From positions 1-23,130 of IMG/VR virus record IMGVR_UViG_3300036945_000253: DNA of 23,130 nucleotides, one strand, 5' to 3'. The notes below the pieces were generated by a model. It did not search any database. It was given only the letters and a program-made list of their open reading frames with translations, and was not told the DNA's origin. This stretch comes from a virus. Shown here one piece after another: positions 18,586 to 19,369 of the stretch. How positions within the stretch are numbered: the first letter of the stretch is position 1; each line of letters opens with the position of its first letter. Both the position numbers and the translations under genes were made by a program.

Positions 18586-19292
18586 TTAATTATCCCAGAT
18601 TTCGTATCCCAGACCCATTCCAATTCCAAATCCTTCTTCTCTCGCTAGAGAGCCTGAAAGGCTTGCTATGTCATTAGTCTCTGGATCGTCTCCTAGGGCT
18701 TCCCTTCTTACATCGTCAAACGATTTGGATTCCCCATTACTATCTGCATCTAGATCAACACCTTGCATGGCTGCGAGGAATCTTTTATCCTCGTAGTCCC
18801 GCTTGTTCATCTCTTCAACAGTAGCAATAAGCTCCGTTAACGATATATTTTCTTCTAGCTCTTGGTAATTTTTCCAAATACCTAAAAGAAAAACTTTTGC
18901 TTCTAAGGCAGCAAGATCAAGATCTTCCCAAGTCTGTGAGGACTTAGTTTTGTTGGTTAGTTCTCCCCAACCATCTTGCTCGCTGCCGCTATCAAATTTG
19001 GGTCACCAAGTTTGATTCCGCCACAAACTTCCATAATCTTCCAAATAGTTGGAACGTCTAGAGAAGCCTCTAGTGCGTCTGGGTCTGAAGCTAAGTCTGG
19101 CAAAGTACCTCTAAGGGCAATAGCGCTTGCTTTTAAAAATATGTCAATGGCTTCGTCTTCTGTCTTAACGTTGTCTAGTCCTGCAACAACACTCATGAAT
19201 TCACGAAGTGCTTTAATTGGGAGCGGCTTTAATATAGCCTTATTCCCGTTTTGTAGTTCAATCTCTACGATATCGTATAGCTTGGTAGCCAA
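18586..19292 (-). CDS. Tail assembly chaperone, -1 frameshift fusion (235 residues)
   Basis: Made by a -1 ribosomal slip inside the 111-residue chaperone gene. Residues 1-100 are shared; the ribosome then slips at CCCAAATTTG (18993-19002) and continues for 135 more residues to the TAA at 18586. The -1 frame is closed by a TGA (19003-19005) touching the slip site on its upstream side and open from there to 18586, so entry can occur only at or after this point. The extension begins D-S-G-S-E-Q-D-G-W-G-E and contains W-E-D-L-D-L-A-A-L-E, then N-K-R-D-Y-E-D-K-R-F-L-A-A-M-Q-G, a style known from frameshifted chaperones of long-tailed phages, and ends G-Y-E-I-W-D-N. Like lambda gpGT, the long form should bring major tail protein subunits to the tape measure. 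An ATG at 18810 is internal and need not be a start. Confidence 0.88.
18957..19292 (-). CDS. Tail assembly chaperone, unshifted short form (111 residues)
   Basis: Product of normal decoding, ending at TAA 18957-18959. It starts with TTG at 19292, 7 bases after a perfect AGGAGG; no in-frame ATG or GTG fits better. The protein is helical with a beta start (K-L-Y-D-I-V-E-I-E-L ... A-I-L-K-P-L-P-I-K-A-L-R-E-F), then acidic helices (T-E-D-E-A-I-D-I-F-L-K-A) and a W-K-I-M-E-V-C-G-G-I near 83-92, matching tail assembly chaperones of the gpG type that follow the major tail gene. It is the first gene of the unit starting from the extended -10 promoter at 19320-19349. The ratio of short to long form is usually about 20 to 1 or more in lambda; here it cannot be estimated. 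Confidence 0.88.
   Translation of the reverse strand: MATKLYDIVEIELQNGNKAILKPLPIKALREFMSVVAGLDNVKTEDEAIDIFLKASAIALRGTLPDLASDPDALEASLDVPTIWKIMEVCGGIKLGDPNLIAAASKMVGEN
18993..19005 (-). promoter_or_regulatory. Programmed -1 frameshift site (slippery CCCAAATTTG)
   Basis: Two overlapping X-XXY-YYZ heptamers are in register with the zero frame: C-CCA-AAT (18996-19002) and A-AAT-TTG (18993-18999). A -1 frame TGA (19003-19005) lies directly before them. Both tRNAs can re-pair after slipping at either heptamer. A 5-base stem (18967-18971 with 18952-18956) begins 21 bases downstream, too far to be a convincing stimulator. The site lies 36 to 45 bases before the zero-frame stop. Confidence 0.85.
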
Positions 19293-19319: not shown

Positions 19320-19349
19320 ATTATACCAATAAACAGGTTAAAAAGACAA
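19320..19349 (-). promoter_or_regulatory. Extended -10 promoter for chaperones and tape measure
   Basis: Perfect TATAAT (19320-19325) preceded by TG-N (TGG at 19326-19328), with TTGTCT (19344-19349, 4 of 6 matches to TTGACA) 18 bases upstream. A start near 19312-19314 would give a leader of about 20 bases ending in the AGGAGG of the TTG-started chaperone. The -35 lies within the T tract of the terminator, so the two signals share bases. Confidence 0.68.
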
Positions 19350-19369
19350 GGCCCCAGTTTCCTGGGGCC
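19340..19369 (-). terminator. Intrinsic terminator after the major tail gene
   Basis: On the minus strand an 8-bp stem GGCCCCAG / CTGGGGCC (19362-19369 pairing with 19350-19357) encloses a GAAA loop, a GNRA tetraloop. It is followed by TTGTCTTTTT (19340-19349). It begins 26 bases after the major tail stop codon at 19396. Stem strength and T tract are those of a classic rho-independent terminator; read-through would be partial or prevented, depending on the host polymerase. Confidence 0.9.

Follow-up and report, generated by a model that had tools for sequence, protein, structure and literature searches.

Comparative evidence for a probable -1 programmed frameshift at overlapping slippery heptamers in a viral tail assembly chaperone gene

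In the window, a virus record of 23,130 bases, the tail assembly chaperone gene is very probably (about 95%) read two ways, through a -1 slip of the ribosome at CCCAAATTTG with a structured RNA downstream. A programmed -1 frameshift of the lambda G/GT type, as a sequence-only reading of this DNA had proposed, is strongly supported by comparison with related loci, because the heptamers are conserved, the extension is under purifying selection, an alternative start is lacking and distant relatives have in-frame fusions. Slippage of this kind in the tail assembly chaperone, giving a longer second version of the protein, is well known among tailed phages. The tail module of the window was closest to those of Streptomyces phages and of many IMG/VR contigs; the Streptomyces phage records opened were mostly Stanwilliamsviridae, a likeness seen in the tail module only, within a 23-kb fragment. 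The features of the locus, all on the minus strand, are as follows.

18957..19292, minus strand: 0-frame ORF, 111-aa short product of a lambda gpG-like tail assembly chaperone, assigned from annotated relatives
18586..19002, minus strand: -1 frame extension, T-like domain, running from CCC through 138 sense codons to a stop
18993..19002, minus strand: slip site CCCAAATTTG with the overlapping heptamers C-CCA-AAT (19002-18996) and A-AAT-TTG (18999-18993)
19003..19005, minus strand: -1 frame TGA immediately before the slip site, at a position that is not conserved
19320..19369, minus strand: terminator hairpin GGCCCCAG-GAAA-CTGGGGCC with a T-tract, then a TTGTCT-18-TATAAT promoter-like site, both from consensus matches only

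The codons around the site (19007-18990) are GGT GAC CCA AAT TTG ATA, and TGA-CCCAAATTTG occupies 19005-18993, 15 codons ahead of the stop of the 111-residue ORF. As the sequence-only reading had stated, a -1 frame TGA directly precedes CCC AAA TTT on the minus strand, so that this frame opens at the slippery run. Its two in-register heptamers and 235-residue combined product were likewise borne out by codon register and ORF coordinates: CCCAAAT and AAATTTG each lie in 0-frame register, and the product has the same length whichever of them slips. The 0-frame ORF begins with a TTG preceded by AGGAGG and ends at a TAA (18959-18957). The chaperone slot before the tape measure, also claimed earlier, was found with the major tail tube gene (PF25681, E 1.3e-8) upstream and the tape measure gene (PF10145, E 1.8e-26; 1,838 residues) downstream, which is the placement of a G/GT-type gene. 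It was also observed that an intrinsic-terminator-like hairpin follows the major tail gene and that the TATAAT promoter-like site lies just upstream of the chaperone gene; a similar arrangement upstream of the chaperone in L144, L147, L150 and L151 is apparently kept, as judged by eye.

The chaperone was identified from annotated homologues and gene order. Identity to annotated tail assembly chaperones was about 40-46%, and the two frames matched families without assigned function (0-frame ORF, phrog_10504, E 1.3e-30; -1 extension, phrog_10474, E 6.7e-17). When the short form was modelled with AlphaFold2 (pLDDT 75.6), the best PDB match was the HK97 tail assembly chaperone 2ob9, a weak one (E 0.57, TM 0.42). 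Annotated tail assembly chaperones were among the viral structure matches of the model, including A0A6J5QVP5 in BFVD ('Tail assembly chaperone', E 1.5e-6), and a PDB sequence search with the chaperone profile gave no match. The homology to known chaperones, with a weak similarity of fold, is as in a G/GT-type system.

The short protein, and also an alignment of it, served as queries for gathering relatives, and the comparison set comprised 94 distinct loci carrying the D-P-N/E motif, 80 of which read GAY CCA AAY. An in-frame XXXYYYZ heptamer, CCCAAAY or AAATTTR, was present inside the overlap in 80/80 of the latter (CCCAAAY alone in 63, CCCAAAT plus AAATTTR in 11, AAATTTA alone in 6), counts which are not independent events since the loci are related. 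Conserved, in-register and within the overlap, these heptamers are placed as in G/GT-type genes. The other genes of the window contained 22 in-frame XXXYYYZ heptamers per 6,357 codon steps, so that about 0.05 would be expected by chance per 14-codon overlap; the site has two overlapping ones. GAC was used by 63/63 of the loci with CCCAAAY alone, the Asp codons in these genes being 471 GAC and 408 GAT, and GAT, which breaks CCCAAAT, was confined to six distinct sequences in which AAATTTA is retained. Related as the loci are, the lineages within the window's clade have diverged almost to saturation at synonymous sites (pS about 0.55-0.9 across most of the gene). CCCAAAT had been described as not one of the most familiar phage slip sites; a literature search for slippage at this heptamer turned up no paper on phages, and within this chaperone family CCCAAAY proved to be the usual one.

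The remaining 14 of the 94 loci had GAC CCG GAA and no XXXYYYZ heptamer in the overlap; those whose records were opened are Boydwoodruffvirinae. In this group (L037, L042, L045, L049-L056, L004) CCCGGAA was accompanied by a conserved -1 extension. The PRFect authors name a non-canonical three-two-two motif (PMC10885494), and CCCGGAA fits that pattern if the name is read as XXXYYZZ. The TGA touching the slip site, which had been put forward as an arrangement to look for in related phages, was present in only 35 of the 94 distinct loci and is incidental. It arises in the window because GGT precedes GAC, is missing in relatives with GGC or AAC (clade members L010 and L017 included), and was rejected as a functional element; its presence depends on the choice between GGT and GGC or between AAT and AAC.

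The sequence-only reading saw no good stimulator close downstream; a three-way-junction candidate was found which reaches 18907, beyond where that reading had looked. Its predicted parts are as follows.

18907..18987, minus strand: predicted stimulator, three-way-junction RNA, from folding and synonymous constraint
18987-18979 with 18915-18907, minus strand: predicted outer stem
18978-18973 with 18923-18918, minus strand: predicted inner stem
18972-18967 with 18960-18955, minus strand: predicted hairpin, its 3' arm containing the 0-frame TAA
18947-18941 with 18934-18928, minus strand: predicted second hairpin

The outer stem, GGCAGCGAG / CTTGCTGCC, begins 8 nt past CCCAAAT and 5 nt past AAATTTG. 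The 100 nt after CCCAAAT had an MFE of -36.4 kcal/mol (z -4.24; 0/200 shuffles as low) and ranked first in stability among 2,303 windows of 100 nt along the contig's coding strand; fold windows of 50-60 nt missed the structure because the 3' arm is found only 80-88 nt past CCCAAAT. Across 14/14 distinct sequences of the clade z ranged from -2.9 to -6.2, and when the part beyond the 0-frame stop was recoded synonymously in seven clade members, equal stability was reached in 0-7 of 400 trials. The lowest synonymous variation outside the overlap (pS 0.25-0.33) fell in extension codons 20-35, which contain the 3' arm (codons 23-28). The outer stem was 100% paired in the same 14/14 sequences, with 8 pairs common to all, two of which show one-sided compatible changes; inner parts were less paired across the clade, and helices 3 and 4 were broken in some members. 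No base pair changed on both sides in either the window's clade or the sister CCCAAAC clade, and the stimulator is accordingly argued from energy and synonymous constraint.

The sister clade has a different, local two-stem element that starts 6 nt after the heptamer. There, in L030 and L070-L137, a conserved GCGGC/GCCGC stem around GGTTCTG/CAGAACT was observed at about 6-46 nt past the heptamer, a distinct stimulator candidate; it was seen in individual folds, the RNAalifold consensus of the clade was weak, and recoding gave little support in most members. The structures in both clades are probable. In G/GT-type frameshifts a stimulatory RNA downstream is frequent without being required. A Shine-Dalgarno-like stimulator upstream was rejected as not conserved (the two codons concerned are GGCGGA in the window; GGAGGN, GGTGGN, GCAGGA and others elsewhere).

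Next, we considered which heptamer works. The TTR leucine codon of the window's clade makes AAATTTR overlap CCCAAAT, and it may be that the frame changes at AAATTTG only, with CCCAAAT a relic in this clade, a reading to which we give somewhat less than an even chance. In its favour, six distinct sequences from two lineages (L013-L016 and L025/L028) carry TCCAAAT, through GAT, beside an intact AAATTTA, and the distance of 5 nt from AAATTTR to the stem is close to the 6 nt from CCCAAAC to the stem in the sister clade. L010/L017 and L024/L026, close relatives of these two GAT-bearing lineages, have kept GAC. Against it, 11 of the 17 distinct members of the clade still have an unbroken CCCAAAT, and CCCAAAY alone serves 63 other distinct relatives. 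The GAT lineages retaining AAATTTA suggest that AAATTTR can work alone. We tentatively propose, as a history that may well prove otherwise, that the slip site moved by one codon via a two-heptamer intermediate (CCCAAAT to CCCAAATTTR to TCCAAATTTA) under a conserved branched RNA stimulator, that a distant branch swapped the frameshift for gene duplication, and that the window represents the intermediate.

The -1 extension is under purifying selection, judging from substitutions between lineages of the window's clade: pS was 0.57 and pN 0.15 from the 0-frame stop to the window's first ATG, and 0.68 and 0.18 beyond it. This bears on whether the downstream ORF might be translated alone, without fusion, from an internal or re-initiated start. 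The ATG at 18810 does open a frame of 74 codons, and in several GenBank records the second ORF is entered as a gene of its own; the best-conserved block (W..LDLA.LE...LGxWKN), itself under purifying selection, nevertheless precedes that ATG. Among 88 distinct -1 ORFs, none had an ATG, GTG or TTG at least 12 codons ahead of the conserved L-G-x-W block, and 61 had no start codon before or in it; in L010 the -1 ORF has no start codon until codon 128 of 138. With the halves also fused in distant relatives, an independent start is highly improbable.

Those fusions were found in L144, L147, L150 and L151, where both halves lie in one frame of about 226-231 residues. Residues 1-99 of the window's 0-frame product aligned with L144 1-99 (34%, E 1e-18) and the -1 extension with L144 108-227 (49%, E 2e-36), in an uninterrupted L144 frame, so the join falls at the slip site. 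Selection on the extension together with these fusions makes it a selected coding frame joined to the first, as in a G/GT-type system. That the two halves form one gene in distant relatives could also be taken to mean that a sequencing or assembly error split a single gene in the window; this is refuted by recurrence, since dozens of independent contigs, and cultured phages too, change frame at the same codon in the same way.

In the contigs read among the fused-gene relatives, a second, short gene encoding 104-109 residues precedes the tape measure. The fused long gene and separate short copy were observed at L144:1001-2083 and L147:1001-2067 and also in L146, L149, L150 and L151, with duplication in place of frameshifting in these distant relatives. 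In a tree of the short domain, with few columns, long branches around these copies and a root for drawing only, the fused and the short copies formed sister groups (98/89 and 100/90) within one clade (100/98), a pattern as would be expected from one duplication.

Slippage of the transcribing polymerase rather than of the ribosome has next to no probability: no point in its favour was found, the longest homopolymer at the slip site is 3 bases, and the heptamer register and a downstream RNA structure are common to the relatives. Comparison shows selection for two predicted products joined at the slip site; that ribosomes carry out the shift, that the RNA stimulates it and what the two proteins do, we infer. 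In the proposed -1 frameshift, most ribosomes would end at the TAA (18959-18957), giving the 111-residue short form, and a fraction would pause at the structured RNA 3' of the slip site. The tRNAs on CCCAAATTTG would then move back one base, from CCA-AAT to CCC-AAA or from AAT-TTG to AAA-TTT, and the slipped ribosomes would continue in the -1 frame to give the 235-residue long form. Among bacterial shifts, re-pairing of an A-site Asn-tRNA from AAT to AAA does not rank as the strongest, which counts against this mechanism. The protein roles may be as for lambda gpG/gpGT, with the short part coating the tape measure protein and the extension recruiting the tail tube protein.

The site is an ordinary, well-supported further case of a known phenomenon and, given how widely tail chaperones conserve frameshifting, adds little by itself; what is instructive is the series of slip sites in the homologous gene (CCCAAAC, CCCAAAT, CCCAAATTTR, TCCAAATTTA, CCCGGAA and GGGAAAA, plus the relatives with a fused long and a short gene). 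Within this natural series the retention of both products can be read from sequence alone, and one can ask how a slip site moves without loss of the product ratio.

Stanwilliamsviridae Streptomyces phages (TunaTartare, Phredrick, Francob and Annadreamy) have homologous chaperones (about 40-46%) in the same synteny, with the same GAC-CCA-AAT slip at the homologous codon, and some are deposited as joined genes. They differ from the window in having CTT after AAT and hence only CCCAAAT. Joined two-piece chaperones are found in the deposited records of the cultured relatives TunaTartare, Phredrick and Yaboi. In MH536811, MT024865, NC_070781, MN428060 and NC_070783 the second chaperone half stands alone, as a hypothetical or short gene, and a joined frameshift product is missing, probably through incomplete annotation. 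Boydwoodruffvirinae differ in having CCCGGAA at the slip position, and Rhodococcus phage Francesca, whose homologous chaperone (28.6%) is deposited as a joined two-piece gene, in having GGGAAAA further downstream, close to the stop. The slip site of lambda is GGGAAAG; unlike lambda, the window has CCCAAATTTG and a strong predicted branched RNA downstream. As in lambda gpG/gpGT (reviewed in PMC5009743), overlapping frames lie between the major tail and tape measure genes, with a -1 shift late in the first frame and a short and a long chaperone. For some T4-like phages a two-gene solution is reported (quoted in PMC10885494), like the fused long and short genes of L144, L147, L150 and L151, whereas the window keeps the frameshift.
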